Source of the DNA: Pimelobacter simplex
GTDB lineage: Bacteria; Actinomycetota; Actinomycetes; Propionibacteriales; Nocardioidaceae
DNA length: 64,000 bases
Direction of reading: 5' to 3'
Assembly: GCF_024662235.1 (NCBI RefSeq)
Contig: NZ_CP096276.1
Coordinates: 5,146,001-5,210,000 of the forward strand
Position numbers and translations under genes: made by a program. Positions 1,317 to 25,343 of this stretch are shown here, piece after piece (the stretch's first letter is position 1; each line of letters opens with the position of its first letter). Under the pieces are notes generated by a model. The model worked only from the letters and a program-made list of their open reading frames with translations. It was not told the DNA's origin and did not search any database.

Positions 1317-1357
1317 ATCGCACCATCCACCCCGGATGAGACGAAAGGCACACTGTG

Positions 1358-2440: not shown

Positions 2441-2495
2441 CCCGGCCTTCCAGCTCCCTCCCCTCCAGCAACCCAACGAGAAAGCGGAGAACCCG

Positions 2496-3677: not shown

Positions 3678-3679
3678 TC

Positions 3680-4597: not shown

Positions 4598-5397
4598 TGA
4601 CCCTGAGCCGCACCACCCGGCGCCTGCTCGCCGGCCTCACGTTCGCCGTCCTGGCGCTGATCTACCTGCCGCTGCTCGTGGTGGTCGTCAACTCGGTCAA
4701 CCCGAGCCAGTCGATGACCTGGCCTCCCGACGGCGTCACCTTCGAGTGGTGGCGCCGGGCCGCGCACAGCGCCGGTGCCCGGGACGCGCTGGTGACCAGC
4801 CTCCAGGTGGCCGTCATCGCGACGGCGCTCGCGCTGGTCCTCGGCACCCTGCTCGCCCTGGCGCTGCAGCGCTACTCGTTCTTCGGCAAGCACTCGGTCA
4901 ACCTGCTGGTGATCCTGCCGATCGCGCTGCCGGGCGTGGTCACCGGCATCGCGCTCAACAACGGCTTCAAGGGGATCCTCGGCGTCGACCTGTCGCTGTG
5001 GACGATCGTCGTGGCGCACGCGACGTTCTGCATCGTGACCGTCTTCAACAACGTGCAGGCGCGGTTGCGCCGGATGGGGACGAGCCTCGAGGAGGCCTCG
5101 GCCGACCTCGGCGCGGGGGTGCTGACGACGTTCCGGCTGATCACGCTGCCGCAGCTGCGCTCGGCATTGCTGGCGGGTGGCATGCTTGCCTTCGCGCTCA
5201 GCTTCGACGAGATCATCGTGACGACCTTCACGGCCGGCAACGGTGCCACCACCCTCCCGATCTGGATCCTGAACAACATGTTCCGTCCCAACCAGGCCCC
5301 CGTGGTCAACGTGGTCGCGGTGGTCCTGATCGTGTTCTCGATCATCCCGGTGTGGTTGGCCCAGCGCCTGTCCTCGGACGTCGAGGCCGCCCGCTGA
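4597..5397 (+). CDS. ABC importer permease, PotC type
   Basis: 266 residues, about six membrane helices, beginning with a short basic N-terminus and a long first helix. The EAA loop SLEEASADLGAGVLTTFRLITLP is near residues 164-186. The sequence ALSFDEIIVTTFTAG is characteristic of PotC-class permeases. Its start overlaps the preceding permease stop by one base. An aldehyde dehydrogenase follows after 59 bases, suggesting that imported amines are oxidised through an aldehyde. Confidence 0.92.
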   Translation: MTLSRTTRRLLAGLTFAVLALIYLPLLVVVVNSVNPSQSMTWPPDGVTFEWWRRAAHSAGARDALVTSLQVAVIATALALVLGTLLALALQRYSFFGKHSVNLLVILPIALPGVVTGIALNNGFKGILGVDLSLWTIVVAHATFCIVTVFNNVQARLRRMGTSLEEASADLGAGVLTTFRLITLPQLRSALLAGGMLAFALSFDEIIVTTFTAGNGATTLPIWILNNMFRPNQAPVVNVVAVVLIVFSIIPVWLAQRLSSDVEAAR

Positions 5398-5456
5398 ACG
5401 CAGCACCACCCCGCACGTACGCACCGCCCGCTCAGACCTTCCCGAAGGAGCACCCC

Positions 5457-6800
5457 ATGACCGAGTACGCCGTCCGCAACCCCGCCACCGGTGAGCTGGT
5501 GGAGACCTTCCCGACCGCGACCGACGCCCAGGTCGGCGCCGCGGTCGACGCCGCCAGCGCGGCCTACGACAGCTGGGGCCGGACCTCGAGCGTGGCCGAG
5601 CGTGCCGCGCTCATCCGCCGCGTCGCCGAGCTCCACCGCGAGCGCCGTACCGAGCTCGCCGCGGCGATGACCGAGGAGATGGGCAAGGCGCCGGCCGACG
5701 CCGAGGGCGAGGTCGACTTCTCGGCCGCGATCTACGACTTCTACGCCGACAACGCCGAGAAGTTCCTCGCCGACGAGTCGATCGACCTGCTCGACGGCAC
5801 CGGCACCGCGGTCATCAAGCGCTCGCCGGTCGGGGTGCTGCTGGGGATCATGCCGTGGAACTACCCGGTCTACCAGATCGCCCGCTTCGCCGGCCCCAAC
5901 CTCACCACCGGCAACACGATCGTGCTCAAGCACGCGCCCCAGTGCCCGCGCTCGGCCGCGATCCAGGAGCAGATCTTCCGCGACGCCGGCTACCCCGAGG
6001 GTGCCTACGTCAACGTCTACGCCACCAACGAGCAGATCGCCGACGTCATCGCCGACCCGCGGGTCCAGGGTGTCTCGCTGACCGGCTCCGAGCGGGCCGG
6101 TGCGGCCGTCGCCGAGATCGCCGGGCGCCACCTCAAGAAGGTCGTCCTCGAGCTCGGTGGCTCCGACCCCTTCATCCTGCTCTCCAGCGACGACCTCGAC
6201 GCCACCGTCGAGGCCGCCGTCGCCGCCCGCCTCGAGAACACCGGCCAGGCCTGCAACGCCGGCAAGCGCTTCGTCGTCGTCGACGACCTGTACGACGACT
6301 TCGTCGCCCGCTTCACCGACGCCCTGCTCGCCGCCTCGCCCGGCTCGCCACTCTCGTCCCAGACCGCCGCCGACAACCTGGCCCGCCAGGTCGACGAGGC
6401 CGTCGCCGGCGGCGCCTCGCTCGCCACCGCGGGCGAGCGCCAGGGCGCGTTCTTCCCGACCGGCGTGCTCTCGGGCATCGAGACCGGCAACCCGGCGTAC
6501 CGCCAGGAGCTGTTCGGCCCGGTCGCCATGGTGTTCCGCGCCAGCGACGAGGACGACGCCGTACGGATCGCCAACGACACGCCCTACGGCCTCGGCTCCT
6601 ACGTCTTCACCACCGACGCCGCCCAGGCCGAGCGGGTCGCCGACCGGATCGACGCGGGCATGGTCTTCGTCAACGGCGTGGGCCTCGAGGGAGCCGAGCT
6701 GCCCTTCGGCGGCATCAAGCGCTCGGGCTTCGGCCGCGAGCTGGGCCGCTTCGGCATGGAGGAGTTCGTCAACAAGAAGATGATCCGCACCAACGGCTGA
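5457..6800 (+). CDS. NAD(P)-dependent aldehyde dehydrogenase, succinate-semialdehyde dehydrogenase-like
   Basis: 447 residues, close to the 450-460 of the GabD/YneI subgroup. Oxidises an aldehyde to the acid with NAD(P). Visible active-site elements: PWNYP with Asn135, general base Glu232 in LELGGSDP, and nucleophile Cys266 in NTGQACNAGKRF. The C-terminal PFGGIKRSGFGRELG motif is typical. AAGGAG lies before ATG 5457. As last gene of the importer operon it probably oxidises an aldehyde made from the imported amine, for example a semialdehyde of a polyamine or GABA route. No aminotransferase or amine oxidase is visible nearby, so the pathway is incomplete here. Confidence 0.92.
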   Translation: MTEYAVRNPATGELVETFPTATDAQVGAAVDAASAAYDSWGRTSSVAERAALIRRVAELHRERRTELAAAMTEEMGKAPADAEGEVDFSAAIYDFYADNAEKFLADESIDLLDGTGTAVIKRSPVGVLLGIMPWNYPVYQIARFAGPNLTTGNTIVLKHAPQCPRSAAIQEQIFRDAGYPEGAYVNVYATNEQIADVIADPRVQGVSLTGSERAGAAVAEIAGRHLKKVVLELGGSDPFILLSSDDLDATVEAAVAARLENTGQACNAGKRFVVVDDLYDDFVARFTDALLAASPGSPLSSQTAADNLARQVDEAVAGGASLATAGERQGAFFPTGVLSGIETGNPAYRQELFGPVAMVFRASDEDDAVRIANDTPYGLGSYVFTTDAAQAERVADRIDAGMVFVNGVGLEGAELPFGGIKRSGFGRELGRFGMEEFVNKKMIRTNG

Positions 6801-7522: not shown

Positions 7523-8266
7523 ATGAGATTCGGCGTCAGCACCCACGGGCACGGCGCGGCGGCGACGCAGGTCGTGGTCGCGGCGCGGCTCGCGGCGCAG
7601 GCCGGGTTCGACACGGTCGGCGTGGCCGGGCCGAGTGCGGACGTGGTCGCCTCGTGGATCGCGGCGACGACGACCCGGGTCCGGATCCGCGCGGCGCTGG
7701 GTGCCGCCGTACCGGCGGACCCGCACCGGTGGGCCACCATCGACGCCCTCTCCGGCGGCCGCCTCGACCTCGCCGCCGAGGACCCCGCCGTCCTCGCGGC
7801 GCTCGGCCGGGCCTGGGCCGGCAGCACCGAGCCGCTGCTGCCGGTGCAGAGCCCGCACCCGCCGCTCGCCCTCGCCGGCGACCCCGTCCGGGCCGGACGG
7901 CACCGGCTGCCGCTGTACGCCGTCGTCGAGGACGACCGTGCCGGGGACCTGGTGGACGCCTACCGCCAGGCCTGGGACGCCGGCCGGCCGCTGTCCGGTG
8001 TCGCGCCCTCGGGCGACCTGACGATCGCGCTCCCGGTGCCGGACGGCTCCGCCGCGCTCCTCGCGAGCGTCGCGCACCTGGCGACGCTCGGTGTCGCCGA
8101 GCTGACCTGGCGCCTCGAGCCCGGCGACGAGAGCCGGCGGATCGCCGCCCTGGCCGCCCACCTCCCGGTGCTGCGCGCGGAGGCGGAGCGCCGGCACCCG
8201 TCCGTGTCCGGCGGTCCCGCCGGAGCGACGCCTCCCTTCCCGCTGCCCGATCGGAGCCTGCGATGA
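7523..8266 (+). CDS. Luciferase-like (LLM) flavoprotein-related protein, short form
   Basis: 247 residues, against the usual 320-360 of LLM enzymes. The N-terminus MRFGVSTHGHGAAATQVVVA and the segment WATIDALSGGRLDLA match the barrel pattern of F420/FMN-dependent LLM oxidoreductases (STLSxGRxxLG region). The middle of the barrel is shortened and the usual phosphate-binding stretch is not obvious. It opens the long catabolic operon, with AGGAGGACCGGG before ATG 7523 and a possible -10 (TAGGTT, 7488-7493). Its stop overlaps the next start (ATGA). It may be a catalytically reduced paralogue or a subunit partner of the full-length LLM enzyme at 8647. Confidence 0.75.
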   Translation: MRFGVSTHGHGAAATQVVVAARLAAQAGFDTVGVAGPSADVVASWIAATTTRVRIRAALGAAVPADPHRWATIDALSGGRLDLAAEDPAVLAALGRAWAGSTEPLLPVQSPHPPLALAGDPVRAGRHRLPLYAVVEDDRAGDLVDAYRQAWDAGRPLSGVAPSGDLTIALPVPDGSAALLASVAHLATLGVAELTWRLEPGDESRRIAALAAHLPVLRAEAERRHPSVSGGPAGATPPFPLPDRSLR

Positions 8267-8634
8267 GCCATGACCTTCCTGCGGACCTGCGCGACCTCGT
8301 CGGCCGGCTCGACGACGGGCTGCGCACCGGCGACCTTGCCGCCGTCGCGGCGCTGTGCGACCCGGACCCGTCGATCACGTTCTACGACGTCGACGGCCAC
8401 CTCTACCGCGGCGCCCGGCACTGGGCCCGGCGTCCGCCGCTGCCCGCGGGGCGGCCCCGGCTCGACGACGTCGCCCCGGAGGTCACCGTCCGCGGCCCCC
8501 TCGCGCTCGTCACCTGGAGCGGCGCCGAGGTCGCCCGCGCCACCGCGCTCGTCGTCCGGCGCCCAGGCGGCTGGCGCGTCGTCCACCTGCACCACTCGCC
8601 CGCGACCCCCGGCCCTCGGCCGGGCAACATCTGA
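8263..8634 (+). CDS. SnoaL/NTF2-like protein, short form
   Basis: 123 residues. A cone-shaped alpha+beta barrel of the SnoaL/NTF2 type is suggested by an N-terminal helix, LCDPDPSITFYDVDGHLYRG (about 30-49), and the C-terminal strand WRVVHLHHSP. The ending RPGNI parallels the ending RPGAI of the 151-residue protein at 15611, and the strand WRVVHLHHS parallels WKVVHAHFS there, so the two are probably paralogues within one operon. Such folds act as isomerases, hydratases or accessory proteins. Coupled to its neighbours by ATGA (upstream) and a 12-base gap (downstream). Confidence 0.72.
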   Translation: MSHDLPADLRDLVGRLDDGLRTGDLAAVAALCDPDPSITFYDVDGHLYRGARHWARRPPLPAGRPRLDDVAPEVTVRGPLALVTWSGAEVARATALVVRRPGGWRVVHLHHSPATPGPRPGNI

Positions 8635-8646
8635 GAGGCCCGCGCC

Positions 8647-9627
8647 ATGAAGATCTCCATCCGGCTCAGCAGCGACCTGAGCCCCGAGCGGGTGCTCGAG
8701 GGCGCCGACGGCGCGGCCGCGGCGGGCCTGTCCGGCGTCTGGCTCGCGGACAACCCGCTCGAGCGGTCTGCCCCGATCAGCGCGGCGGTCATCGCGGCTC
8801 GCCACCCCCAGCTCGACATCGGGCTCGGGATCGTCTCCGCGCGCGACCGGCACCCGGTCGTGCTGACCCAGGAGATGGTCGCGCTCCAGAGCTACACCCG
8901 CGGCCGGGTGGCGGTCGGGCTGGGCCTTCAGAGCGACGAGCACCGCAAGCTGCTCGGCCTGCCCGCCCGCAGCGGGCTCGAGCTGCTGCGCACCACGGCC
9001 GGGCTGATCACCGAGCTGTCCGCGGGCCGCGAGGTTCCCGCGCTCGGCGAGGGCGAGGGGACGATCCGGCTCAAGGTCACCGCGGACGCGCCGCTGCCGG
9101 TGTTCGTGGGCGCGATGGGTCCCAAGACGCTCGCGCTGGCCGGCGAGGTCGCCCACGGCGCCGTCCTCTCCCTCGGTACGACGGCCGCCGCCGCCCGCGA
9201 CGCCCTCGGCACGGCGCGCGCGCACTTCACGCCGTCCGAGGTCGCCGACCACTTCGACGGGGTCTGCTACGTCGGCTTCGGCGGCGTGGGCGAGGGCTCC
9301 TACGCGCGGCTGGAGACGTTCGCCGCGGGCTACCTGCGGATCATCGTGGCGCACCCCTTCCTCAGCATGCTCCTCGACGGCACCGGGCTCGACCTGGCGC
9401 AGGCGGCTGAGGTCGTCGCGGCGTACGACGCCGGGACCCCGGTCCCGCGCGAGGTCGTCACCGTGATGGGCATCGGCGGCTCGCTGGAGGAGTGCCTGGA
9501 CCAGCTCCAGGCGTACGCCGACGCCGGGGTCGACGACGTCGCGCTCGGCATCGGCCTGTGGAACGACACCCTGCCCGCGACCCTCGCCGACGTCGCGACC
9601 CTCGCCCGGGCCTGGTCGCAGCGATGA
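8647..9627 (+). CDS. LLM-class flavin/F420-dependent oxidoreductase
   Basis: 326 residues, normal length for the family. Looks closest to the 5,10-methylene-H4MPT-reductase-like branch, which often uses F420. Visible features: ARDRHPVVLTQEMVALQSYT (about 61-80), RVAVGLGLQSDEHRKLLGL (about 84-102), and PVFVGAMGPKTLALAGEVAHG (about 150-170), the strand and loop that bind the cofactor phosphate. In this family, enzymes such as RutA open heterocyclic rings and others reduce or oxygenate small substrates. Given the adjacent amidase and Mo hydroxylase, a ring-modifying or N-C bond-cleaving role is plausible but inferred. Its stop overlaps the amidase start. Confidence 0.88.
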   Translation: MKISIRLSSDLSPERVLEGADGAAAAGLSGVWLADNPLERSAPISAAVIAARHPQLDIGLGIVSARDRHPVVLTQEMVALQSYTRGRVAVGLGLQSDEHRKLLGLPARSGLELLRTTAGLITELSAGREVPALGEGEGTIRLKVTADAPLPVFVGAMGPKTLALAGEVAHGAVLSLGTTAAAARDALGTARAHFTPSEVADHFDGVCYVGFGGVGEGSYARLETFAAGYLRIIVAHPFLSMLLDGTGLDLAQAAEVVAAYDAGTPVPREVVTVMGIGGSLEECLDQLQAYADAGVDDVALGIGLWNDTLPATLADVATLARAWSQR

Positions 9628-10835
9628 CCCCGCTCGACGTCGCGACCGCGCTCGACCGGATCGCCGCGACCGACGCCGAGCTCGGCGCCTGGGTCGGCCC
9701 CGTCACGGACCCGGGCCCGAGCGCCGCCGGTCCGCTGTGCGGCTGGCCGCTGGGCGTGAAGGACCTGATCGACGTCCGGGGGCTGCCCACCGCCGCCGGC
9801 GCGTACGACGGCAGCGCGCCGCCGCCCGCGAGCACCGATGCCGAGGTGGTCCGCCGGCTGCGCGCCGCGGGCGCCGCGGTGCTCGGCAAGACCGAGGCCG
9901 TGGAGTACGGCTGGTTCGGCACCGTCCGGACCCGCCACCCGCGCCGCGCTGACCGCAGCCCGGGCGGCTCGTCGAGCGGCTCGGCCGCCGCGGTCGCGGC
10001 GGGGCAGGTGCGGGCCGCGCTGGGCACCCAGACCGCGGGGTCGGTGATCCGGCCGGCCGCCTACTGCGGTGTCCCGGCGGTGAAGTGGTCGCACGGCGCG
10101 GTGCCGATGACCGGCGTGATGCCGGCCAGCCCCAGCCTCGACTCCCTCGGCGCCTACGCGGCGACCGTGGCCGACCTGGTCGCGCTGAGTGCGGTCGCGC
10201 TCGACGAGGAGCCGGTCGCCCCCGACCCGGCCACCGCGGCCGGAGCCCCGGTGCTCGCGGTCGTCGAGGACGCGGCCTTCGCCGACATCGACCTGCGCGT
10301 GCGTGACCGGTTCGCCCGGGCGGTCGACGCCCTGGTCGCCCGCGGCGCCACGGTGCGGACCCTCGGCCTCGGCGGCGAGCTGCCGTGGGCCGAGTACGCC
10401 CGGGCCCACCGCACGATCATGGTCCGCGAGATCGCCACCGTGCACGCGCCGCGGCACCGCGCCGAGCCCGGCCACTTCTCGCCCTCGCTCGGTGCGGCGG
10501 TCGCGGAGGGCCTGGCGATCAGCGACGCCGACTACCGCGCCGCGCTGCGGACCCGGTCCGCCGCCCGCGCCGCCTTCGAGGCCTGCCTGGTCGGCGTGGA
10601 CGCCTGCCTCACCCCGGCCGCGACGAGCCTCGCCCCGCCCGTGGGGGAGGCGGGGAGCCCGGCCTGCAACGTGCCCTTCACCCTGGCCGGACTGCCCGCG
10701 GTCGCCGTGCCGACCGCCGAGGTGGACGACGAGCTGCCGGTCGCCGTCCAGCTCGTCGGTGCGCACGGGACCGACCTGCGGCTGCTCGCCACCGCCGCCT
10801 GGTGCGCGCGCGAGACCGTGGCGGTGGGCGCGTGA
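9624..10835 (+). CDS. Amidase-signature family amidohydrolase
   Basis: 403 residues. Hydrolyses an amide or ureide bond through the Ser-cisSer-Lys triad. Likely residues are Lys46 in LGVKDLID, cis-Ser116 in SPGGSSSGSAAAVAAG, and nucleophile Ser140 in GTQTAGSVIRPA. The length is shorter than the common 450-500, lacking part of the C-terminal cap, as in allophanate or mandelamide hydrolase-like members. Both ends overlap neighbours (ATGA before, GTGA after), so it is tightly coupled to the LLM and DUF1116 genes. The substrate is unknown; the context suggests the amide product of an oxidised nitrogen compound. Confidence 0.9.
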   Translation: MTPLDVATALDRIAATDAELGAWVGPVTDPGPSAAGPLCGWPLGVKDLIDVRGLPTAAGAYDGSAPPPASTDAEVVRRLRAAGAAVLGKTEAVEYGWFGTVRTRHPRRADRSPGGSSSGSAAAVAAGQVRAALGTQTAGSVIRPAAYCGVPAVKWSHGAVPMTGVMPASPSLDSLGAYAATVADLVALSAVALDEEPVAPDPATAAGAPVLAVVEDAAFADIDLRVRDRFARAVDALVARGATVRTLGLGGELPWAEYARAHRTIMVREIATVHAPRHRAEPGHFSPSLGAAVAEGLAISDADYRAALRTRSAARAAFEACLVGVDACLTPAATSLAPPVGEAGSPACNVPFTLAGLPAVAVPTAEVDDELPVAVQLVGAHGTDLRLLATAAWCARETVAVGA

Positions 10836-12046
10836 ACGCGCTCGCCGCGCTGGCGGCCGAGCCGGTCCACCTGGTCGGCTTCGGCCGGGCCGGCGACCTG
10901 TGGCCGGCGCTCGCCGACCCGGACGTCGTCCTCCACGCCGGACCTCCGCTGGCCGGCCGGGCGCCCACGCCCGCGATGCTCGGCGCACTCGTCGGCTGCC
11001 TGCTGTTCGACGGCCGCGCGCGCGACGCCGACCAGGCCCGCACCTTGATCGAGGACGGCACCATCACGCTCCGCTCGTGCCACGAGGTCGGCGGGGTCGG
11101 GCCGATGAGCGGCGCGGTGAGCGCCGGCGTACCGGTCGTCGTCGCCGAGCGCAGCGACGGCCGGCGGGCCTACGCCCCGGTCAACGAGGGCCTCGGCCCG
11201 GCGCTGCGGTTCGGCAACTTCGACGCCGGGACGCTGCGCCGGCTGCGCCACCTCGCCGAGGTCGTCGCCCCCGCGCTCGACCGGGCGGTCCGGGCGGCCG
11301 CGCCGATCGACCTCGTCGCCTGGCAGGCCGCCGCGCTGCGCCGCGGCGACGAGGGGCACAACCGCAACGTCGCGGCGACGTCCATGCTCGCCACCCGGCT
11401 GGCGCCGGCCGTGGTCGCCACCAACGAGACGGCCGTCGCGGTCGCGGCGCTGCGCGAGCTCGACGAGAACGCGCACTTCTTCCTGCCGCTGTCGATGGCC
11501 GCGGCCAAGGCGGCCGCCGACGCCCTCCACGACGTCGCGCCGCCCGGGATCGTCACCGCGATCGCGTCCAACGGGCACGGCACGGGCATCCGGGTCTCCG
11601 GGCTGCCGGGCTGGTTCGAGGGCACCGGGACGCTGGAGGCCGCCCAAGGCGTCGAGGGCCACGAGCCCACCGACTTCGCGCCCGCGATGGGGGACTCCCC
11701 GGTCACCGAGGTGGTCGGGCTCGGCGCGTCGGCGATGTCGGCGGCGCCCAACCTGGCCCGCACCCTCGGCTGGACGACGCAGCGCTCGCGTGAGCACGTG
11801 CTGGGCCTGCGCCGGATCAGCGACGCCGGGCACGAGCTCTTCCGGATCCCCGACCTCGACTTCGCGGCCAGCCCGTTCGCGATCTCCGTCGCGCGCGTCG
11901 TCGAGACCGGCCACGCGCCGTGCTTCACGACCGGCTTCTCGCACCGCGACCTCGGCATCGGCCGGGCCGGCTTCGGCCTGGTCCGGCTGCCGCTCCCGGC
12001 CTTCGCCGACGCGTTCGCCGCGCTGAGCCCGGACGGTGCCCGGTGA
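10832..12046 (+). CDS. DUF1116 (AllG/YlbE/YahG-like) protein
   Basis: 404 residues from GTG 10832. Hallmarks of DUF1116 are visible: GDEGHNRNVAATSML (172-186), NAHFFLPLSMAAAKA (about 213-227) and SNGHGTGIRVSG (246-257). In enterobacteria AllG belongs to AllFGH, reported to act as an oxamate carbamoyltransferase. That makes carbamoyl transfer one possible role here, but no AllF (FdrA), AllH or carbamate kinase gene is in the window. It sits between the amidase and the Mo-hydroxylase FAD subunit with 4-base overlaps on both sides, which argues for an obligate role in the same pathway. Confidence 0.82.
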   Translation: MNALAALAAEPVHLVGFGRAGDLWPALADPDVVLHAGPPLAGRAPTPAMLGALVGCLLFDGRARDADQARTLIEDGTITLRSCHEVGGVGPMSGAVSAGVPVVVAERSDGRRAYAPVNEGLGPALRFGNFDAGTLRRLRHLAEVVAPALDRAVRAAAPIDLVAWQAAALRRGDEGHNRNVAATSMLATRLAPAVVATNETAVAVAALRELDENAHFFLPLSMAAAKAAADALHDVAPPGIVTAIASNGHGTGIRVSGLPGWFEGTGTLEAAQGVEGHEPTDFAPAMGDSPVTEVVGLGASAMSAAPNLARTLGWTTQRSREHVLGLRRISDAGHELFRIPDLDFAASPFAISVARVVETGHAPCFTTGFSHRDLGIGRAGFGLVRLPLPAFADAFAALSPDGAR

Positions 12047-12918
12047 GCGCGCCCTTCCCCGTCTACCTCCCCGAGTCGTACGACGACGCGGCCGAGGTCC
12101 TCGCCGAGCACGACGGCGAGGCCCGCATCCTCGCGGGCGGGCAGTCGATGGCGGTGCTGCTGCGCCTCGGGATGGCCCAGCCGGCCGGACTGGTCAGCCT
12201 GCGCCGCTGCCCCGAGGCCGGTACGGCGTCGCCGACCCCGGCCGGCGACGCGCTGCGGATCGGCGCCCGCTACACGGTCGCGGACGCGCACGCCGATCTC
12301 TCCGGCGACTTCGCCGCGCTCCGCTCGGCGGCCGGCCAGGTCGCCTCACCGCACGTGCGCAACCTCGGCTCGGTCGTCGGCAACGTCTGCCACGCCGACC
12401 CGGCCAACGACCTCGCCGCCCCGCTGCTGTGCCACGAGACGACCGCGACCGCGCAGTCGGTCCGCGGTACCCGGACCGTCTCCCTCGGTGACCTCCTCGT
12501 CGCCCCCTACGCCCCCGCCCTCGACCCCGACGAGTACGTCGTCGACCTCGTCGTCGCACCGCGCACCGGCTGGCACGGCGCCTACCGCAAGCAGGTCTGG
12601 CGCTCCGCCGACCATCCCGTCGCCGGGGTGGCCGCCGTGCTCGACGTGCGCGACGGCGTGGTCGCGGACGCCCGGGTGGCGCTCAGCGCGACGGTCGCCG
12701 TCCCGTGCCTGCTCGACGACGTCGCCGCCGCGCTGCGCGGCGTGGCCGCCGACGCGGCCCCCGCCGTCGCGCGCGAGGCCGCGGCCGACGCGCTCGCCGG
12801 ACTGGCCCTGCTGGGCGACCACGACGTGCCCGCGTCGTACCGGCGCAAGGTCGCGGCGGTCCTGGTCGGCGACGCGGTCGCCGACGCGCTCACCACCGGA
12901 GGAGGGAGCCACCGATGA
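12043..12918 (+). CDS. Molybdenum hydroxylase FAD-binding (medium) subunit
   Basis: 291 residues. Carries FAD and passes electrons from the FeS subunit to an acceptor. The FAD-binding motif is ILAGGQSMAVLLRLGMA (about 30-46) and the second is NLGSVVGNVCHADPAND (about 107-123). A CO-dehydrogenase flavoprotein C-terminal domain follows (about 180-285). Order medium-small-large with 4-base overlaps is the classic CoxMSL arrangement. GTG 12043 overlaps the DUF1116 stop. Confidence 0.92.
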   Translation: MSAPFPVYLPESYDDAAEVLAEHDGEARILAGGQSMAVLLRLGMAQPAGLVSLRRCPEAGTASPTPAGDALRIGARYTVADAHADLSGDFAALRSAAGQVASPHVRNLGSVVGNVCHADPANDLAAPLLCHETTATAQSVRGTRTVSLGDLLVAPYAPALDPDEYVVDLVVAPRTGWHGAYRKQVWRSADHPVAGVAAVLDVRDGVVADARVALSATVAVPCLLDDVAAALRGVAADAAPAVAREAAADALAGLALLGDHDVPASYRRKVAAVLVGDAVADALTTGGGSHR

Positions 12919-13382
12919 CCTGGGAGCTCAACGTCAACGGGGTGCCGCGCACCATCGAGGCGCCGCCGAGCGCGCTGCTGGTCGACGTGCTGCGCGACGA
13001 GCTCGGCCTGGTCGGCACCAAGGTCGGCTGCGGCATCGGCTACTGCGGCGCGTGCACCGTGCACCTCGACGGCAAGCCCGTGCACGCCTGCTGCGTGATC
13101 GCCGGGGACTGCGAGGACGCTGCCGTCGAGACCATCGAGCAGGTCAGCACGACACCCTGCGGCCGTACGGTCGTCGACGCGTTCGCCGAGAACGGCGCCA
13201 TCCAGTGCGGGTTCTGCACGCCGGGCTTCGTGATGAGCACGACCGGGCTGCTCGCCGAGACCCCGGCGCCCGACGAGGCCGAGGTGCGCGACTACCTGGT
13301 CGGCAACATCTGCCGCTGCACCGGATTCACCAAGATCGTCGCCGCCGTGTGCGACGCCGCCGGACGGGAGCAGGCCCGATGA
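12915..13382 (+). CDS. Molybdenum hydroxylase [2Fe-2S] (small) subunit
   Basis: 155 residues with all eight cluster cysteines. The plant-ferredoxin-type N-terminal domain has C39, C44, C47 and C59 in VGCGIGYCGACTVHLDGK...CC. The helical C-terminal domain has C98, C101, C133 and C135 in QCGFCTPGF and NICRCTGF. It relays electrons from the Mo centre to FAD. GGAGGGAGCCACCG precedes ATG 12915, and the stop overlaps the large-subunit start. Confidence 0.95.
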   Translation: MTWELNVNGVPRTIEAPPSALLVDVLRDELGLVGTKVGCGIGYCGACTVHLDGKPVHACCVIAGDCEDAAVETIEQVSTTPCGRTVVDAFAENGAIQCGFCTPGFVMSTTGLLAETPAPDEAEVRDYLVGNICRCTGFTKIVAAVCDAAGREQAR

Positions 13383-15583
13383 CCGCCCTGACCGGCGCGC
13401 GCTTCGCCCGGGTCGACGGGCGGGCCAAGGCCTCCGGCGCGGCCGTCTACACCTCCGACACCCGGCTCGACGGGATGCTCGAGGCGGCCGTCGTCCGCTC
13501 GCCCGTGCCGCGCGCCCGGGTCCGCGGCATCGACTTCACCGCGGCGCTCGCGCTCGACGGCGTGGTCGCGGTGCTCGGCCCCGACGAGGTCGCGGACCTG
13601 CACCCGGTGCCGGTCTTCCCGGGGATGCCCGCCAACCAGCGGGTGCTCACCGCCGCCCCCATGTACGTCGGCGACGCGGTCGCCGCCGTGGTCGCCCGCG
13701 ACGCCGCGACCGCCCGCGAGGCCGCCGCCCTCGTCGAGCTCGACCTCGAGGAGCTGCCGCCGCTGCTCGACCCCGCCCTCGCGCTGGGCTCGGCCGACGA
13801 GCTCTTCGCGGGCGTCCCGGGCAACGAGGCGGGCCCGCCGGTCGAGCTCGACCGTGGCGACGTGGACACCGCGATGGCCGGTGCGGCGCGGGTGTTCGTC
13901 GACGAGTACCGCCTCCAGCGCCAGTGCGCCCAGACCATCGAGCCGATGAGCTGCATCTGCGACTGGAGCGACCCGGACCGGCTGGAGGTGATCACCCACC
14001 TCGACAACGTCTTCCACTTCCGCGAGCAGCTCGCGGAGATGCTGGGCGTCGCGGAGCACGTCGTACGGATCACCGCGCCGCAGACGCTCGGCGCGACCTT
14101 CGGGCTCAAGAACGGCATCCTCACCTCGATGGAGCCGCTCTGCGCGGTGCTCTCGCGCAAGACCGGCGCACCGGTGCGGCTCGTGCTCACCGCGGAGGAG
14201 AGCATCAGCACGACGGTGACCCGGCACTCCGGCACGATCCGGCTCACCACCGGCGTCGACGCCGAGGGCACGCTGCTCGCCCGCGAGGCCGAGGTGCTGC
14301 TCGACGCGGGCGCCTACGGCTGGGGCTCGCTCGTCACGTTCAGCATGCTCGGCAAGTGGGCGACGCTCTACCGCACCGAGCACCTGCGCTTCCGCGGGCG
14401 CGGCGCCTACACCAACCACGTGCCGGCCGGCGCCTACCGCGGCGTCGGGACGGCGCAGCTGCACTTCGCGATGGAGTCCCAGATCGACGACATCGCCCGC
14501 GCGCTGGGGGAGGACCCGCTCGGCTACCGCCTGCGCCACGTGCTCCGGGTCGGTGACCCGCTGCTCAAGGGGACGCCGGTCCGGGCGCTCGGCATCGAGG
14601 AGTGCGCCGAGCGCGGAGCCGCCGCCATCGGCTGGAACGACCGGCCCGCACCCGAGCCGGACGCCCGGTTCCGGCGCGGCTACGGCGCCGCCTTCGGGCT
14701 GCACCACTCCGGCCTCAACGGCACCTTCCCCCAGATCCCCGAGCGCTCCAGCGCCCGCGCCCGGCTCCAGGAGGACGGCCGGGTCGTCGTCGACACCGCC
14801 GCGATCGACAAGGGGCAGGGCACGATCTCGACCTTCGCCGCGATCGCGGCCGACGTCTTCGGCGTCGCGATCGAGGACGTCGCGTTCTCCGCGATCGACT
14901 CGGACACCTCGCCGGTCGACTACATGGGTGCCGAGGCCAGCCGGACGACGTACGTCGCCGGGCGCGCGGTCGAGATGGCGCTCCAGGCCCTGCACACCAA
15001 GGTGGTGGCCGCAGCCGGTGGTACCGCCCCGGTCGGCCGGGCCGGACTGGCCGCGCTCGTCGCCGAGGTGGGCGTGCGGGACCTGGTCGCCGAGGCCGAC
15101 TTCGTGCCCACCGACCAGGACCCGCTGCCCGTCATCGGCGCCGACTTCTGCGAGGTCGAGGTCGACACCTGGACCGGTCAGGTGCGGGTGCTCCGCTTCG
15201 TCGCCGCCCAGGACGTCGGCAAGGTGATCAACGAGCTCGGCTGCGAGGGCCAGATCGAGGGCGGCGCGCACCACGGCATCGGCTACGCGCTGACCGAGGA
15301 GCTGCTCGTCGAGGACGGCCAGCCGGTCAACGGTGACTTCGCCGGCTACCGCGTGCTCATGGCGCCGGAGATGCCCGAGATCGTGCCGATCCTGGTCGAG
15401 CACCCCGATCCCGAGGGCGGTCCCTCCGGCTCCAAGGGCATCGGCACCGGCGTCATCCCGGCCATCGCGCCGGCGGTCTGCAACGCCATCTGCGACGCCA
15501 CCGGCGTCCGGCCCACCCAGCTTCCGGTGACCCCGGTCCGGCTGCTCGCCCTCATCGAGGCCGCGGCCGGCCACCCCGCCTGA
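13379..15583 (+). CDS. Molybdenum hydroxylase large subunit (xanthine dehydrogenase family)
   Basis: 734 residues, somewhat short of the usual 760-800. Binds Mo-pterin cytosine dinucleotide and hydroxylates a substrate with water. Aldehyde-oxidase hammerhead domain about 15-125, Mo-binding domain about 135-730. Visible motifs: LGATFGLKN (237-245, counterpart of GGxFGxK) and AYRGVG (352-357). The C-terminal motif that normally reads GxGE, with the catalytic glutamate, reads [11 protein letters not shown], giving Thr690 at that place. This points to an altered mechanism or a divergent subfamily. Substrate unknown; heteroaromatic or aldehyde compounds are the family norm. CoxG at 26553 may be its membrane/quinone partner. 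Confidence 0.92.
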
Positions 15584-15610
15584 CCCGACACCAACGACAA
15601 GGAGACCACC

Positions 15611-16066
15611 ATGCCCATGACCGACCTCGAGCGCGACCGCGAAGCCGTCCTCGCCGTCCACCACCGCTACAACAAGGAGGCGCAGGCGACCGCCGACATC
15701 GAGCTGCTCGCCGAGCTCTGGGACGACGACCCGAGCAATGCCTTCTACAACTACTCCGGGCACAACTACCGGGGTCTCGCGCAGTGGAGCAAGCTGTGGG
15801 AGTACTTCGGCGAGCGCATCGAGTACTTCGTCCCGTGGACCTCGTTCGACACCCAGGTCAACGTCCAGGGGGACGTCGCGTGGGTGACCAGCCAGCGCTT
15901 CCACGGACTCAAGTGGATCGGCGACGAGGACCTCAACCCGCTCGGCGAGCCGACGGTACGGCTGACCCGCTCGACCGAGGTGATGGTCCGCAAGGGCGAC
16001 ACCTGGAAGGTCGTCCACGCGCACTTCTCGCTCGGCTCGACGGACGCGCGCCCCGGCGCGATCTGA
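15611..16066 (+). CDS. SnoaL/NTF2-like protein
   Basis: 151 residues. The pattern of helix ([20 protein letters not shown]), acidic loop ([20 protein letters not shown]) and curved strands ending in [10 protein letters not shown] is typical of SnoaL-like/NTF2 proteins. The tail RPGAI and the segment SGHNYRG/DGHLYRG link it to the shorter copy at 8263. AAGGAGACCACC precedes ATG 15611; an in-frame ATG at 15617 is possible. Such proteins can be cofactor-free isomerases or hydratases. Presence of two copies in one operon suggests successive related steps or a heteromer. Confidence 0.8.
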
Positions 16067-16077
16067 GCGGACGGCAC

Positions 16078-17124
16078 GTGCTCGACCTCCGGTCCGACAC
16101 CGGCACCCGCCCGAGCCCGGCCATGCGCCGGGCGATGGCGGAGGCCGAGGTCGGGGACGACGTCTACGGCGACGACCCGACCGTCAACGACCTGCAGCGG
16201 GCGTGCACCGCGCTGCTCGGCAAGGAGGCGGCTCTCTTCGTGCCCTCGGGCTCGATGGGCAACCTCGTCGCGATCGCGGCCCAGTGCGGTGGTCGCGGCG
16301 ACGGCGTCGCGGTCGAGCTGCTCTGCGACACCGATGCGCACGTGCTCAACCACGAGGGCGGCGGGCTCGGGCTGCTGCCGCTCACCCCGTGCGCCCTGCC
16401 GGCGCCGGGCGGCGTGGTGCCGGCCGACGTCCTGGCCGCGCGGATCAGGGCCGGCGACGACCACGCGCCCCGCACCGCGCTGCTCAGCGTCGAGATCACC
16501 CACACCGGCCTCGGCGGCACGGTCCCCGACCGCGCCGCGTACGCCGCGACCGCGGAGGCCGCCCGCGAGCGGGGCGTCGCGGTCCACGTCGACGGGGCGC
16601 GGCTCTTCAACGCCGTCGTCGCGAGCGGCGTCTCCGCGGCGCAGTGGGCGGGTCCTGCCGACACCGTCTCGATCTGCTTCTCCAAGGGGCTCGGCGCCCC
16701 GGCCGGCGCGATGGTCGCCGGCAGTGCCGAGGTCGTCGAGCGCGCCCGGCTGTGGCGCAAGCGGCTCGGCGGCGCGATGCGGCAGACCGGCGTCCTGGCC
16801 GCGGCCGCGGCGGTCGCGCTGGACGAGGGCCCGGCCCACCTCGCCGAGGACCACGCCCGCGCCGCTTGGCTCGCCACCACGCTGGCCGAGCGGTTCCCCG
16901 GGTCGGTCGACCCGGCGGACGTGCACACCAACATCGTGCACGTCGCGTGCGGCCCGCTCGGCGTACCGGCGCCGGTGCTGGTGCCCGCGCTCACCGCCCG
17001 CGGCCTGCTCACCAAGGCGTACGACGACCGGACCCTCCGGCTCGTCACCCACCGCGACCTCGCCCCGGGCGACCCGGCCGCCGCGGTCGACCTGCTCACC
17101 CGAGTGATCGGCGAACTGACATGA
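16078..17124 (+). CDS. Threonine-aldolase-like PLP enzyme (beta-eliminating lyase family)
   Basis: 348 residues from GTG 16078. Fold-type I PLP enzyme resembling low-specificity L-threonine aldolase. It starts [24 protein letters not shown] (about 54-62) binds the cofactor phosphate; Asp172 in VHVDGAR pairs with the pyridine nitrogen; Lys203 in [13 protein letters not shown] forms the Schiff base. It would cleave a beta-hydroxy amino acid to glycine and an aldehyde, or a related substrate. It lies 11 bases after the SnoaL gene and its stop overlaps the D-aminoacylase start. Confidence 0.9.
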
Positions 17125-18713
17125 CCAGCACCCGCACCCTGATCCGGCACGCCCTCCTCGTCGACGGCACCGGCACCCCGCCGCGCCCCGCCGACGTCCT
17201 GCTCGACGGCGCCACCATCGCCGCCGTGACCGCCCCCGGCGCCGTGACCACGCCGGTCGCGACCGAGGTCGACGCGACCGGACTGGTGCTGACGCCCGGC
17301 TTCATCGACGTCCACTCGCACGCCGACAACGCGCCCTTCCTGGCCGACGACGACACCTCCAAGGTCGCCCAGGGCGTGACCACCGAGGTGGTCGGCAACT
17401 GCGGCTTCTCGCTCGCGCCCTGCCTGCCCGACCATGCCGAGGACCTCGCGTCGATGTCGGCGCGGGTGTTCCCGCCGATCCCGTGGGCCTGGCGGACGTT
17501 CGCCGACTACCTCGCCGCCACCGACGCCGCCGGCTATGTCACCAACACCGCGCCGCTCGTCGGCCACAACGCCCTGCGGCTCGCGGTCCTGGGCTTCGCC
17601 GGCCGTCCGGCCGCCGACGCCGAGGTCGCCGCGATGGGCGACCTGCTCGACGAGGCGCTGGCCGCCGGCGCCTTCGGGCTGTCGTCGGGACTGGCCTACC
17701 CGCCGGGGATCTTCTCCGGCTCCGACGAGCTCGCCGCCCTCGCCCGGCACCTGCCCGCGGACCGGCCCTACGTCAGCCACGTCCGCAGCGAGGGCGCCCT
17801 GCTGACCGACGCGCTCGACGAGGCGCTCGCGGTCGGCCGGGGCTCCGGCCGGGCCGTGCACGTCTCGCACCTCAAGGTCGCCGGACGCCGCCAGTGGGGC
17901 TCGATGCCCCGGGTGCTCGACCTGCTCGACCGGGCGCGGGCCGAGGGGCTCGACGTACGCCAGGACGTCTATCCCTACACGGCCTCCTCGACCATGCTCA
18001 CCGCCACGCTGCCGCCCTGGATGCACGAGGGCGGTCGCGACGCCGCCCTCGCCCGGCTGTGCGATCCCGCGGCCCTGGAGCGGCTGCGCACCGACATCGC
18101 GAACGACGACCGCTCCTGGGAGAACCCCGTGCTCGGTGCCGGCTGGGAGGGCGTCGTCATCGCCGCCGCGCCGCGCCTGCCCGAGGTCGAGGGGTGCTCG
18201 CTCGCCGCCATCGCCGAGGCCCGCGGACTCGACCCCTTCGCGGCGCTCGTCGCGGTGCTGCGGGAGGTCGAGCTGGAGGCGAGCATGGTCGTGCACTCGA
18301 TGCACGAGGACGACCTCGACGCCGTCCTGCGCCACCCGGCCACGATGATCGGCTCCGACGGGCTGCCGCCCGGGGGCGGCGGGAAGCCGCATCCCCGCAT
18401 GTACGGCACCTTCCCGCGCGTCCTCGCCCGCTACGCCCGCGACCGCGGGGTGCTCGACCTCAGCGCCGCCGTGCGCCGGATGACCTCGCTGCCCGCCGCC
18501 GCCTTCGGCCTGCACGACCGCGGCGTCGTCGCCCCCGGGTACGCCGCCGACCTGGTCGCGCTGCGCCTGGACGACCTCGCCGACCGGGCGACGTACGACG
18601 ACCCGACCCGGCAGCCCGACGGCATCGCCTGGGTGCGGGTCAACGGTGACCTGCGGGTCGCCGAGGGCCGCTACCTCCCCGGCCGTTCCGGCCGCCGGCT
18701 CACCCCGCGCTGA
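17121..18713 (+). CDS. N-acyl-D-amino-acid deacylase-like amidohydrolase
   Basis: 530 residues, the usual length of D-aminoacylases. Composite beta-sandwich and metal-dependent TIM barrel. Visible ligands: HSH (65-67) in [11 protein letters not shown] and Cys94 in [10 protein letters not shown], the zinc cysteine characteristic of this subfamily. Further conserved stretches are YVSHVRSEG (about 214-222), HVSHLKVAG and the metal aspartate in MIGSDGLPP. It could release an N-acyl or N-carbamoyl group from an amino-acid-like intermediate. ATGA overlap with the PLP enzyme suggests they act in sequence. Confidence 0.88.
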
Positions 18714-18747
18714 CCTTCCGCACGAACCCACCGAGGAGAAGAGAACC

Positions 18748-20325
18748 GTGCCTGACCACCTGACCGCCGCCGCCCGCCGCAACGCGATCGGCGACATCCT
18801 GCCGCGCACCGCCGCCCGGGTCCCGGACAAGACCGCGCTGGTCTACGGCGCGACCGAGCGCACCTTCGCCGAGCTCGACGCCGTCGTCGCCCGGACCGCC
18901 TCGGCCCTCGCCGCCGACGGCGTCGCCCGCGGCGACCGGTTCGGCATCGTCGCGCGCAACAGCGACGAGTTCGCGATCCTCTACCTCGCGCTGGCCCGGA
19001 CGGGCGCGGTCTCCGTACCGGTGAACTTCATGCTCAACGCCGACGAGATCGCCTACATCCTCGACGACGCCGGCTGCACCGGCGTCGCGGTGGCGACCGA
19101 GTTCGTCGGCACCGTCGCCGACGCGCTGGCCCGGCTCGCGGCTCCGGTCGCGCGCCGCGTCCAGATCACCGTGGACGGCGGCCCGCTCGCCGAGGGCTGG
19201 ACCGAGCTCACCACCCTCCTGGCCTACGACGGCCCGGTGCTCCCGGCCGCCGACGTCGCCCCCGACGAGCTCATCCAGCTGCTCTACACCAGCGGCACGG
19301 AGTCCCACCCCAAGGGCGTGATGCTCACGTCCGCGGCGCTGATGGCGCAGTACACGAGCGTCATCGTGGGCGGCCGGATGAGCGCCGACGACGTCGAGCT
19401 CCACACGCTGCCGCTCTACCACACGGCACAGCTGCACTGCTTCCTCACGCCGGCGCTCCTGCTCGGCTCGACGAGCATCGTGCACAGCCGCCCGGTGCCG
19501 GCCCGGATCGTCGCCGACGCCGCCCGCTACGGCGTCACGAAGTTCTTCGCGCCGCCCACGATCTGGATCGCGCTGCTGGCCGAGCTCGACGCCACCCCCG
19601 GCGCCGCTCCCGGTGCTGACCTGTCGACCCTGCGCAAGGGCTACTACGGCGCCGCGGCGATGCCGGTGGAGGTGCTCCACCAGCTCGCCGAGCGGCTGCC
19701 GGACCTGGAGCTGTGGAACTTCTACGGCCAGACCGAGATGAGTCCCATCGCCACAATCCTCGAGCCGGCGTACGCGGCCACCAAGCTCGGCAGCGCCGGA
19801 CGCCCCGCGCTCAACGTCGAGACCCGCGTCGTCGACGACGCCGACCAGCCGGTGCCGCCCGGCGTCGTCGGCGAGATCGTGCACCGCAGCCCACAGCTGA
19901 TGACCGGCTACTGGCGCCGTCCCGACCTCACCGAGGCGGCCTTCGCCGGCGGCTGGTTCCACAGCGGCGACCTCGGGGTGTTCGACGAGGACGGCTTCCT
20001 GACCATCGTCGACCGCAAGAAGGACATGGTGAACACCGGCGGCGAGAACGTCGCCAGCCGCGAGGTCGAGGAGTGCCTCTACCTCCACCCCGCCGTCGCC
20101 GAGGCCGCCGTGGTCGGCCTGCCGCACCCGCAGTGGGTCGAGCAGGTCACCGCGGCCGTCGTCCTCAAACCGGGCGCCGCGGCCGGTCCCGAGGACCTGC
20201 GCGCCCACTGCGCCGAGCGGCTCGCGGGGTTCAAGGTGCCCAAGCAGGTCGTGCTCGTCGAGGCACTGCCCAAGAACGCCAGCGGCAAGATCCTCAAGCG
20301 GGACCTACGGACCTCGCTGCTCTAG
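18748..20325 (+). CDS. Acyl-CoA synthetase (AMP-binding, class I adenylating)
   Basis: 525 residues from GTG 18748, preceded by GAGGAGAAGAG. Activates a carboxylic acid as its CoA thioester with ATP. Motifs: P-loop LYTSGTESHPKG (179-190), YGQTEMSP (about 330), GWFHSGDLGVFDEDGF (adenylate binding) and C-terminal LPKNASGKILKRDL with the catalytic lysine. The TSGTE variant is normal. Last gene of the twelve-gene operon; it would feed the residual acid to central metabolism, with the MaoC-like protein at 27187 as a possible following step. The operon ends just after it at a large inverted repeat. Confidence 0.93.
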   Translation: MPDHLTAAARRNAIGDILPRTAARVPDKTALVYGATERTFAELDAVVARTASALAADGVARGDRFGIVARNSDEFAILYLALARTGAVSVPVNFMLNADEIAYILDDAGCTGVAVATEFVGTVADALARLAAPVARRVQITVDGGPLAEGWTELTTLLAYDGPVLPAADVAPDELIQLLYTSGTESHPKGVMLTSAALMAQYTSVIVGGRMSADDVELHTLPLYHTAQLHCFLTPALLLGSTSIVHSRPVPARIVADAARYGVTKFFAPPTIWIALLAELDATPGAAPGADLSTLRKGYYGAAAMPVEVLHQLAERLPDLELWNFYGQTEMSPIATILEPAYAATKLGSAGRPALNVETRVVDDADQPVPPGVVGEIVHRSPQLMTGYWRRPDLTEAAFAGGWFHSGDLGVFDEDGFLTIVDRKKDMVNTGGENVASREVEECLYLHPAVAEAAVVGLPHPQWVEQVTAAVVLKPGAAAGPEDLRAHCAERLAGFKVPKQVVLVEALPKNASGKILKRDLRTSLL

Positions 20326-20448: not shown

Positions 20449-21330
20449 TCAGCGATCGAGCACGCCGAGCGCGCCGTACATCTCCTCGATGGAGTGCAGG
20501 GTGCGCTCGGCGCGGCCGTCGCCGGCCAGCTCCCAGAGCATCGCGAGCAGGGCGTAGGTGACCGACACGGGAGCGGTCAGGGACTGGAAGATCGACGCCC
20601 CCACGGTCGGTACGACGACCGTGTGCCGCGCGCGCCGGGCGAACGGCGAGAGCAGCGAGTCGCTCATCACCACGGTCGGGACGCCCCGCTCCTGCAGGGT
20701 GTCCATCGCCGAGACGACCTGGCGGCCCAGGCGCCAGAAGCTGATCCCGACGGCGCAGTCGGACTCGTCGAGCCCGGCCAGCGCGACGGCGAGCTCGGGC
20801 CCGCCCTGGGGGGCGACGGTCACGGGGAAGCCCATGAGCGAGGCGTTGAAGGCCAGGATCTGGCCGACGGCGGAGTAGCTGCCCGCGCTCACCACGACCG
20901 TACGACGAGCGCCCGCGATGAGCTCGGCCGTCGCCCGCAGCTGGTCCTGGTCGACGGTCTCGAGCGCCGTGCTGAGCGAGGTGATGTCGGCCTGGAGCGT
21001 GGCCTCGAAGGGGTTCTCGTCGCCGAGCTGGCGCCGGGCGATCTCGGTGGGCAGCTGGTGCGAGCGGTCCTGGCTGCGCAGCTCGGCCTGGAAGGCCGGC
21101 CAGCCGGAGAAGCCGAGCGACTGCGCGAAGCGCACCACCGTGGCGACGTTGACCTCGGCCAGCTCGGCGACCTCGCTGGCGGTGCGGGTCTCGGCGGCGT
21201 AGACGTTGCCCTCGATGAAGCGGGCGACGGCGAGCTGCTTGGGGGAGAAGTCGCGCCCCCCGAGCAGGGAGGCGAGCCACTGCCGCCGGGCAGCGGAGGA
21301 TGCCGCGTCGGTGCCGGACTTCTGGGACAT
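20449..21330 (-). CDS. RpiR/MurR-family transcriptional regulator
   Basis: 293 residues. N-terminal helix-turn-helix (about 30-85) with ASEVAELAEVNVATVVRFAQSLGFSGWPAFQ, typical of the RpiR family, and a C-terminal SIS domain (about 120-260) that binds phosphosugars or similar ligands (VVVSAGSYSAVG, VGISFWRLGRQVV). ATG 21330 is chosen because GAGGTGG stands just before it; the ORF continues upstream to 21399 but that part lies in the operator region. It is divergent from the ABC importer and convergent with the catabolic operon, so it probably controls one or both. Confidence 0.92.
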   Translation of the reverse strand: MSQKSGTDAASSAARRQWLASLLGGRDFSPKQLAVARFIEGNVYAAETRTASEVAELAEVNVATVVRFAQSLGFSGWPAFQAELRSQDRSHQLPTEIARRQLGDENPFEATLQADITSLSTALETVDQDQLRATAELIAGARRTVVVSAGSYSAVGQILAFNASLMGFPVTVAPQGGPELAVALAGLDESDCAVGISFWRLGRQVVSAMDTLQERGVPTVVMSDSLLSPFARRARHTVVVPTVGASIFQSLTAPVSVTYALLAMLWELAGDGRAERTLHSIEEMYGALGVLDR

Positions 21331-21372
21331 CGCCACCTCGTGTTCCGCGTGCGTCACGCGCTCGTGAATTTC

Positions 21373-21407
21373 TGCAAAGACTATTGCATCATTCTGCAAA
21401 GGTGCAA
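21373..21407. promoter_or_regulatory. Array of TGCAA half-sites, probable RpiR operator
   Basis: Four half-sites alternate in orientation: TGCAA (21373-21377), TTGCA (21384-21388), TGCAA (21395-21399) and TGCAA (21403-21407). The first three start exactly 11 bases apart, about one helical turn, giving the palindromes TGCAA-N6-TTGCA and TTGCA-N6-TGCAA. The array lies in the AT-rich centre of the gap between the RpiR gene and the importer, where both promoters must be. Confidence 0.7.
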
Positions 21408-21476
21408 TACGGTCGGCCCACGACGCGTGGTCCGCGTCACACCCTTCCCCATCGCACGAGCACCACGGAGCATCTG

Positions 21477-24352: not shown

Positions 24353-24390
24353 TGGGTACCGAGCGCACCGCGCAGACAGGAGGCGGGCCC

Positions 24391-25245: not shown

Positions 25246-25279
25246 GCGCCCTCGCCCGACCCCTCCGCCACCGATCCCG

Positions 25280-25320: not shown

Positions 25321-25343
25321 TCTCGTGCCGTCGTCCGAGGCCG

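Follow-up and report, generated by a model that had tools for sequence, protein, structure and literature searches.

An unpartnered AllG protein and a molybdenum enzyme without its catalytic glutamate in a twelve-gene operon of Pimelobacter simplex, possibly for breakdown of an N-heterocycle or ureide

What compound does a tightly packed run of twelve genes in Pimelobacter simplex act on, and by what chemistry? The run lies at 7523-20325 of a 64,000-nucleotide stretch of contig NZ_CP096276.1 (positions 5,146,001 to 5,210,000; hereafter, the window). It encodes two luciferase-like (LLM) proteins, two SnoaL-like proteins, an amidase, an AllG (DUF1116) protein, a three-subunit molybdenum (Mo) enzyme, a pyridoxal phosphate (PLP) aldolase, a D-aminoacylase-like amidohydrolase and an acyl-CoA synthetase. 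Two features are unusual: AllG is without its partners and stands in a clade of its own that goes with LLM genes, and the Mo-enzyme is without its catalytic glutamate. We tentatively read the run as one operon for the breakdown of a nitrogen compound taken up from outside. The likeliest substrate is an N-heterocycle or a ureide that holds urea-type or amide C–N bonds; the reading as a whole falls somewhat short of an even chance.

AllG (PF06545), formerly named DUF1116 only, is now listed in Pfam as a subunit of oxamate carbamoyltransferase. According to the available text of PMC11326118, the genes of oxamic transcarbamylase were assigned only in 2024 and the E. coli enzyme requires AllF, AllG and AllH (fdrA-ylbE-ylbF); the available part of PMC12625717 describes nitrifiers that carry allFGH together with carbamate kinase. 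The window protein (404 aa, 10832..12046, + strand; PF06545, E 3e-59) resembles this system, as far as that text on AllFGH goes, in its family and its core motifs, which include GDExHNR, NG, GDS and E293. In contrast to AllFGH, the twelve genes contain no AllF, AllH or AllK, and the window AllG belongs to a separate, LLM-associated clade and lacks the canonical invariants R246 and D285. No profile match to AllF or AllH was found within the 64-kb window, and Pfam detected no carbamate kinase among the twelve operon proteins (the genome as a whole was not searched). The same genome has a canonical AllG-AllF-AllH locus elsewhere (G000:C1:352266-364601; L140 12267 to L141 4602), adjoined by PucR, a xanthine/uracil-type permease, a Mo-hydroxylase, CoxG and an amidase. 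The only solved relative of AllG is 3clq, an uncharacterised protein.

The window AllG or a three-row alignment was used as query in overlapping samples, and an AllG match was obtained in 17/39 genomes of relatives, 51/396 of the phylum, 135/215 of the genus and 89/394 of the class. Two further unpartnered ('solo') AllGs came from G526, a genome of the same genus (297 bits; next genome 236), and G215, of the same phylum (304 bits; next genome 266); in the class and order of G215, 11/198 and 31/138 genomes had a match. All 29 newly examined loci of the class sample have AllF beside an AllG that is closer to the canonical one, as AllF is present in all 10 newly examined loci of G215's order. Besides G215, its class gave nine non-fragment loci, seven with AllF and two with AllH only. 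Across the 191 loci with an AllG profile match, AllF was undetectable in 27; seven of these duplicate the three solo loci, and several are short or incomplete stretches.

In a 66-row tree, the AllGs of the window, G526 and G215 form one clade with a support of 100/100. The rows were taken from 184, short, identical and repeat rows having been removed beforehand, and comprise the three solo AllGs, all 20 other AllF-less ones, 20 chosen AllF-linked ones, 22 random ones (seed 1) and E. coli. Unlike AllF-linked AllGs, the solo proteins have R171, S319, A299, L308, L312 and T134 in common, and all three have lost R246 and D285, both found in 161/161 AllF-linked AllGs. The window AllG retains 68/104 canonical near-invariant residues. 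It is 44% identical to each of the other two, which are 38% identical to one another. The proposed clade is based on the tree, the profile scores and the common residues and not on raw identity. No description of AllG without its partners, or of this gene set, was found among the matches listed from open-licence papers. A lineage that keeps the core motifs without the partners would be a natural test of AllG's own role.

The solo loci also differ from the canonical ones in their neighbours. An LLM gene lies within 2 kb of AllG in 3/3 solo loci versus 1/70 AllF-linked loci (Fisher p 6.4e-5, a value that ignores common ancestry), and in none of the 14 other AllG loci that are without AllF and span at least 8 kb. 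The canonical set of 70 was defined by AllF anywhere in a stretch of 8 kb or more. In G526, a single run encodes a SnoaL protein, a five-gene branched-chain-type importer, an LLM, DUF1028, AllG, a second LLM, the medium, small and large Mo-enzyme subunits and an M20 hydrolase. Besides AllG, the G215 locus encodes a cysteine-dioxygenase-like cupin, a RidA-family protein, a rhodanese and an LLM, and it has a DUF1028 gene truncated at the contig end. For the Mer-like LLMs of both relatives, the top-scoring families are F420-dependent ones including Mer, at scores below curated cut-offs. One LLM of the G526 operon is 36% identical to the window's LLM1 over 58 aa, and its SnoaL-like protein 34% identical to SnoaL-like 2 over 125 aa. 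Both relatives thus encode a DUF1028 protein close to their LLM and solo AllG genes (L145:17384-18247 in G526 and L142:16931-17317 in G215); we found no paper on DUF1028 in the open-licence literature.

An earlier note on this DNA, made from the sequence alone, knew of no characterised route that combines DUF1116 with a Mo-hydroxylase and LLM enzymes. The co-occurrence search proposed there shows that the pairing of DUF1116 with a Mo-hydroxylase is not new: a Mo large subunit is found in 40 of the 70 AllF-linked loci, and a Mo-hydroxylase adjoins the canonical locus of the same genome. In the same 70 loci we counted AllH in 54, an amidase in 9, an LLM in 1 and the window's type of amidohydrolase in none. 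Two other groups of DUF1116 loci have no detectable AllF. L193-L196, L198 and L199 have a conserved neighbourhood (L198 and L199 with AllH); the neighbours in L193 are two lyase-family genes (one argininosuccinate-lyase-like), a PALP gene and a pyridine-nucleotide-disulphide oxidoreductase gene, and BLAST matches tie the remaining loci of the group to it. L021, L191, L192, L197 and L201 have glutamine-synthetase-like, short-chain dehydrogenase/reductase or purine/cytosine-permease genes nearby, varying by locus.

The second unusual feature is in the Mo-enzyme. Its FAD subunit (MoM; 291 aa, 12043..12918; PF00941, PF03450), its 2x[2Fe-2S] subunit (MoS; 155 aa, 12915..13382; PF00111, PF01799) and its large subunit (MoL; 734 aa, 13379..15583; PF01315, PF02738, PF20256), all on the + strand, have the FAD/FeS/Mo layout of the xanthine oxidase family, which includes xanthine dehydrogenase (XDH), 4-hydroxybenzoyl-CoA reductase and aldehyde oxidoreductase. 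The best PDB match of MoL is 1rm6, and the nearest solved enzymes are 4-hydroxybenzoyl-CoA reductase and aldehyde oxidoreductase. In contrast to the family, MoL has Thr690 for the catalytic Glu, Asp209 for Gln, Ala239 for the Gly before the FG motif and Ala488 for Gln. Thr690 (codon ACC) stands where 50/50 other readable sequences have Glu, a substitution first seen in a smaller comparison of 45 open reading frames (ORFs); at the other three positions, Gln is found in 50/50, Gly in 51/51 and Gln in 50/51. The alignment contained 52 other ORFs from the loci examined, including a short piece of the window itself; most are encoded beside AllG or are paralogues drawn from three genomes, so that the set is not a whole-family sample. 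HMMER alignments place Glu in the same column in 1rm6, 1sij and 7dqx, and we take this column to be the catalytic base position of the xanthine oxidase family. Glu is kept in the G526 Mo-enzyme and in four other copies of the same genome as the window (L132-L135).

With this Glu replaced by Thr690, the hydroxylation suggested in the earlier note cannot be assumed in its ordinary form. Because the large subunit is without the usual catalytic base, the enzyme probably catalyses a reaction other than ordinary hydroxylation, or acts as a substrate-binding or electron-transfer partner. Among the matches listed in the open-licence literature, nothing relevant to natural loss of this Glu was found. 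Such a subunit would be a natural test of whether the residue is dispensable or replaced. Two other Mo loci of the same genome were observed. A 1115-aa large-subunit ORF at L208:4436-7783 is the closest paralogue of MoL, with neighbours that look, by eye, hydantoinase- and isochorismatase-like. Another Mo-hydroxylase and amidase-like cluster lies at G000:C1:5219588-5224836 (L144 9588-14836), ∼10 kb past the window end, with IclR just upstream.

How do the remaining genes fit with these two proteins? An ORF check of the window confirmed the twelve-gene, same-strand arrangement described earlier: all twelve ORFs at 7523-20325 are present on the + strand without an internal stop, and Pfam and NCBIfam agree with the families first assigned to them. 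GC content at third codon positions (GC3) is 0.94-0.98 across the twelve, with a strong codon-position GC bias. Seven of the eleven junctions, on recount, and not eight as had been reported, overlap by 4 bp. Five are ATGA overlaps (LLM1/SnoaL-like 1, LLM2/amidase, MoM/MoS, MoS/MoL and aldolase/amidohydrolase) and two are GTGA overlaps (amidase/AllG and AllG/MoM). The others are gaps of 12 bp (SnoaL-like 1/LLM2), 27 bp (MoL/SnoaL-like 2), 11 bp (SnoaL-like 2/aldolase) and 34 bp (amidohydrolase/acyl-CoA synthetase). Given this tight packing, the genes are presumably co-transcribed as a single operon.

The operon opens with LLM1 (247 aa, 7523..8266), a short, divergent luciferase-like protein with a PF00296 match below cut-off (E 5e-4) and three weak NCBIfam LLM matches, one to an F420 type and two to other LLM types. 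It is followed by SnoaL-like 1 (123 aa, 8263..8634; PF13474, SnoaL_3, E 4.5e-6) and by LLM2 (326 aa, 8647..9627; PF00296, E 1e-25), a Mer/F420-type luciferase-like oxidoreductase. Nearly all NCBIfam matches of LLM2 are to F420 subfamilies and Mer, all below curated cut-offs, and its nearest PDB match is Mer (1z69). The amidase-signature hydrolase (403 aa, 9624..10835; PF01425, E 1e-56) matches PDB 2dc0 and malonamidase E2, and has motifs beginning at residues 45, 114 and 138 that we take to be the catalytic Lys/Ser/Ser motifs. Downstream of AllG and the Mo-enzyme are SnoaL-like 2 (151 aa, 15611..16066; PF13474, SnoaL_3, E 4.5e-9) and an L-allo-threonine aldolase/GntG-like PLP aldolase (348 aa, 16078..17124), which scores 337 bits against NF041359 (cut-off 230), matches PDB 9e97 and 1jg8, and carries an SKGLGAP motif with Lys203. 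The D-aminoacylase-like metal amidohydrolase (530 aa, 17121..18713; PF07969, Amidohydro_3) has its best PDB match in 3gip/3giq, an N-acyl-D-Glu deacylase (E 7e-83), with the His/Cys/Asp motifs aligned and D-aminoacylase also near. The acyl-CoA synthetase (525 aa, 18748..20325; PF00501, AMP-binding; NF006182, 716 bits against a cut-off of 663) starts with GTG at 18748, with GAGGAG upstream. All of these genes, too, are on the + strand.

Packing and intactness support the view, already taken in the earlier note, that the operon serves one pathway, and since ATP-binding cassette (ABC) importers flank it on both sides, that pathway is probably catabolic. In the proposed route, redox steps on a ring would fall to the Mo/FeS/FAD enzyme together with the two LLMs. 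For the LLMs, we favour F420-dependent hydride transfer over oxygenation with O2, given that the genome encodes the F420 gene cofH (over cut-off) and the best families of LLM2 are, albeit below cut-offs, F420 types. The amidase would open an amide or ring C–N bond. Next, AllG may transfer or release a carbamoyl or ureido group although AllF/AllH are missing, the D-aminoacylase-like enzyme may remove an N-acyl or N-carbamoyl group, or both may act. The aldolase would then release glycine and an aldehyde from a beta-hydroxy amino acid, and the acyl-CoA synthetase would activate the remaining acid. The solo AllG and the Glu-less Mo-enzyme together point to an unassigned catabolic route. In its full form, with a stand-alone AllG as carbamoyl/ureido enzyme, F420-dependent LLM reductases and a Mo-enzyme repurposed without its catalytic Glu, this undescribed N-heterocycle or ureide route is a more doubtful proposal than the catabolic operon itself.

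The overall logic would be that of the reductive uric acid pathway, built from different enzymes. In the available text of PMC12507026, this pathway consists of XdhD, YgfK/UacX or a putative F420-LLM, SsnA, HyuA, YgeW/UacY, YgeY and YgeX, and uses an XDH homologue as reductase plus ring hydrolases. In the Chloroflexota version described there, a putative F420 luciferase-family reductase takes the place of YgfK/UacX, a flavin-type reductase. In general, the ureido group is removed by a carbamoyltransferase or by the D-aminoacylase-like UacY (PF07969, likened to 3GIQ), and the pathway also includes a PLP lyase and a peptidase of the M20 family (PMC12507026). Compared with this partial account, the window also has an XDH-family Mo-enzyme with an FAD subunit, a carbamoyl-transfer family protein and a PLP enzyme. 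LLM2 (PF00296) matches the LLM-reductase slot, its F420 type being assigned by scores below cut-off, and the amidohydrolase is in UacY's family PF07969 with 3gip/3giq as best PDB match, a likeness at the level of family. The window differs in having AllG in place of YgeW and a Mo-enzyme without the catalytic Glu, and in adding the amidase, the aldolase, the SnoaL pair and the acyl-CoA synthetase. We therefore suggest by analogy that the operon may work like the reductive uric acid pathway, without claiming membership of it.

Several points weigh against the proposed route and against the grouping of the solo loci. The substrate class and all enzymatic steps, a carbamoyl or ureido role of AllG without AllF/AllH among them, are inferred from protein families and gene order. 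SsnA is the marker of the reductive uric acid pathway, and its best match in the genome reaches 168 bits against a cut-off of 455.5, with none of the five SsnA matches lying in the window. HyuA is not among the twelve genes (the amidohydrolase scores 32 bits against a D-hydantoinase cut-off of 393; the genome was not searched), and nor are M20 (YgeY) or PALP (YgeX). The Mer-like LLMs of the three solo loci are just 24-28% alike, with no clear orthology; because of this, and because LLM families are large, the LLM/AllG linkage is an association of kinds and not proven orthology, and what looks like one module may be an assembly of similar parts and not a pathway inherited as a whole. LLM1 was missed by the custom-built LLM profile used for the locus counts. 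No Mo-enzyme is encoded on the 17-kb contig stretch of G215, which has five matches elsewhere in its genome, and importers differ among the solo-locus relatives. Raw identity does not separate the solo AllGs, as the canonical-side AllGs of L022, L032 and L078 are also 44% identical to the window's, and the tree program flags the solo branches as long. Other AllF-less DUF1116 families with different partners exist, so a missing AllF is not special to LLM loci. The samples also have limits. The loci that were read came from higher-scoring hits, leaving out lower ones and most of the genus hits (five of which were given as loci), and the 70 canonical loci are not a random sample, since a single search, with the window AllG as query, supplied 64 of them. 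M20 and DUF1028 were each found in 0/70 AllF-linked loci, a weak result from profiles grown from a single seed; the DUF1028 profile missed the truncated G215 copy that Pfam detected.

Rarity of the gene set was assessed in samples of related genomes, and none of them gave a genome with clear orthologues of the twelve genes as a set. No MoL match at E <= 1e-100 was found in other genomes of the 394-genome class sample (top 2 candidates per genome scored), no LLM2 match at E <= 1e-30 in other genomes of a 209-genome genus sample (top 10 scored), and no close copy of the window AllG in the genus, class and phylum samples. Relatives on mobile elements were considered and rejected: none of 52 pattern matches on viral contigs encodes a relative, and 187 matched plasmid records were all below 60% identity (top 41.9% among the matches listed). 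In line with the first reading of this DNA, we found no cluster with an assigned substrate.

Could other readings account for the operon? The best placed, an unlikely one nonetheless, is Rut-like oxidative ring opening, in which an LLM would attack a pyrimidine-like ring as an FMN/O2 monooxygenase, and RutB would be replaced by AllG, the amidase and the amidohydrolase. RutA is an LLM-family enzyme, the Rut pyrimidine pathway and the window both have an LLM near amide or ureido hydrolases, and the RidA-family gene of G215 (Ribonuc_L-PSP; NCBIfam RutC E 4e-17, below cut-off) lies between AllG and the LLM. However, the RutA equivalog TIGR03612 matches neither LLM1 nor LLM2 (NCBIfam, E 0.001), LLM2 scores best against F420 families, and the twelve genes include no RutB or RutC and no RidA, isochorismatase or flavin reductase gene. 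The hydroxylating and oxygenating chemistry envisaged in the earlier note belongs with this alternative; the LLM2 scores lean the other way, towards the F420 families.

A biosynthetic operon is improbable. LLM, SnoaL, PLP enzyme, amidase and acyl-CoA synthetase families occur in biosynthetic clusters too, where they could build a specialised metabolite, and the lack of any close copy of the operon would suit such a role. However, no nonribosomal peptide synthetase, polyketide synthase or carrier-protein match was obtained among the twelve genes or the scanned flanking genes, and it is importers with regulators that flank the operon. Ordinary purine or allantoin catabolism through oxamic transcarbamylase AllFGH, with the Mo-enzyme as XDH, is slightly less probable again. 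It would explain the AllG family and the AllG/Mo-hydroxylase neighbourhoods common among AllF-linked loci, but is countered by the missing AllF, AllH and carbamate kinase, by the separate canonical locus in the same genome, by the lost near-invariants of the window AllG, with R246 and D285 gone from all solo AllGs, and by the absent catalytic Glu. Equally improbable is decay of the Mo subunit, or perhaps of the operon, for which the four replaced near-universal MoL residues and the short, divergent LLM1 could speak, since the twelve frames are intact with high GC3 and preserved 4-bp overlaps, the FeS and FAD subunits match over their domains, and the amidohydrolase metal motifs and aldolase PLP motif are present.

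Importers and regulators lie on both sides of the operon. Upstream on the + strand, a unit at 1355..6800 encodes a polyamine-type ABC importer (ATPase, substrate-binding protein and two permeases) and an aldehyde dehydrogenase, with NCBIfam names below cut-off; a GntR/FCD regulator at 455-1165 is divergent from it. This unit possibly supplies the operon. We rejected it as part of the same packed unit and regard it as a possible accessory, because 722 bp separate it from 7523 and two possible small minus-strand ORFs, without a Pfam match, lie between. Downstream, 20449..26543 contains an RpiR regulator (minus strand), a second ABC importer, an IclR regulator and a second substrate-binding protein. 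RpiR was considered as a regulator common to the window and G526, and at 21% identity orthology was not accepted. Directly past the binding protein of the second importer, CoxG-like and MaoC-like genes at 26553-27675 are possibly tied to the Mo-enzyme. A riboswitch was also considered, and the window has no Rfam match at gathering scores. The GC content of the window peaks at 8001-14000 (0.76-0.78, with most other 2-kb stretches at ∼0.70-0.76), which may hint at a foreign origin of the operon. A second LLM-family ORF in the window lies at 58464-59570 on the minus strand, distant from the operon.

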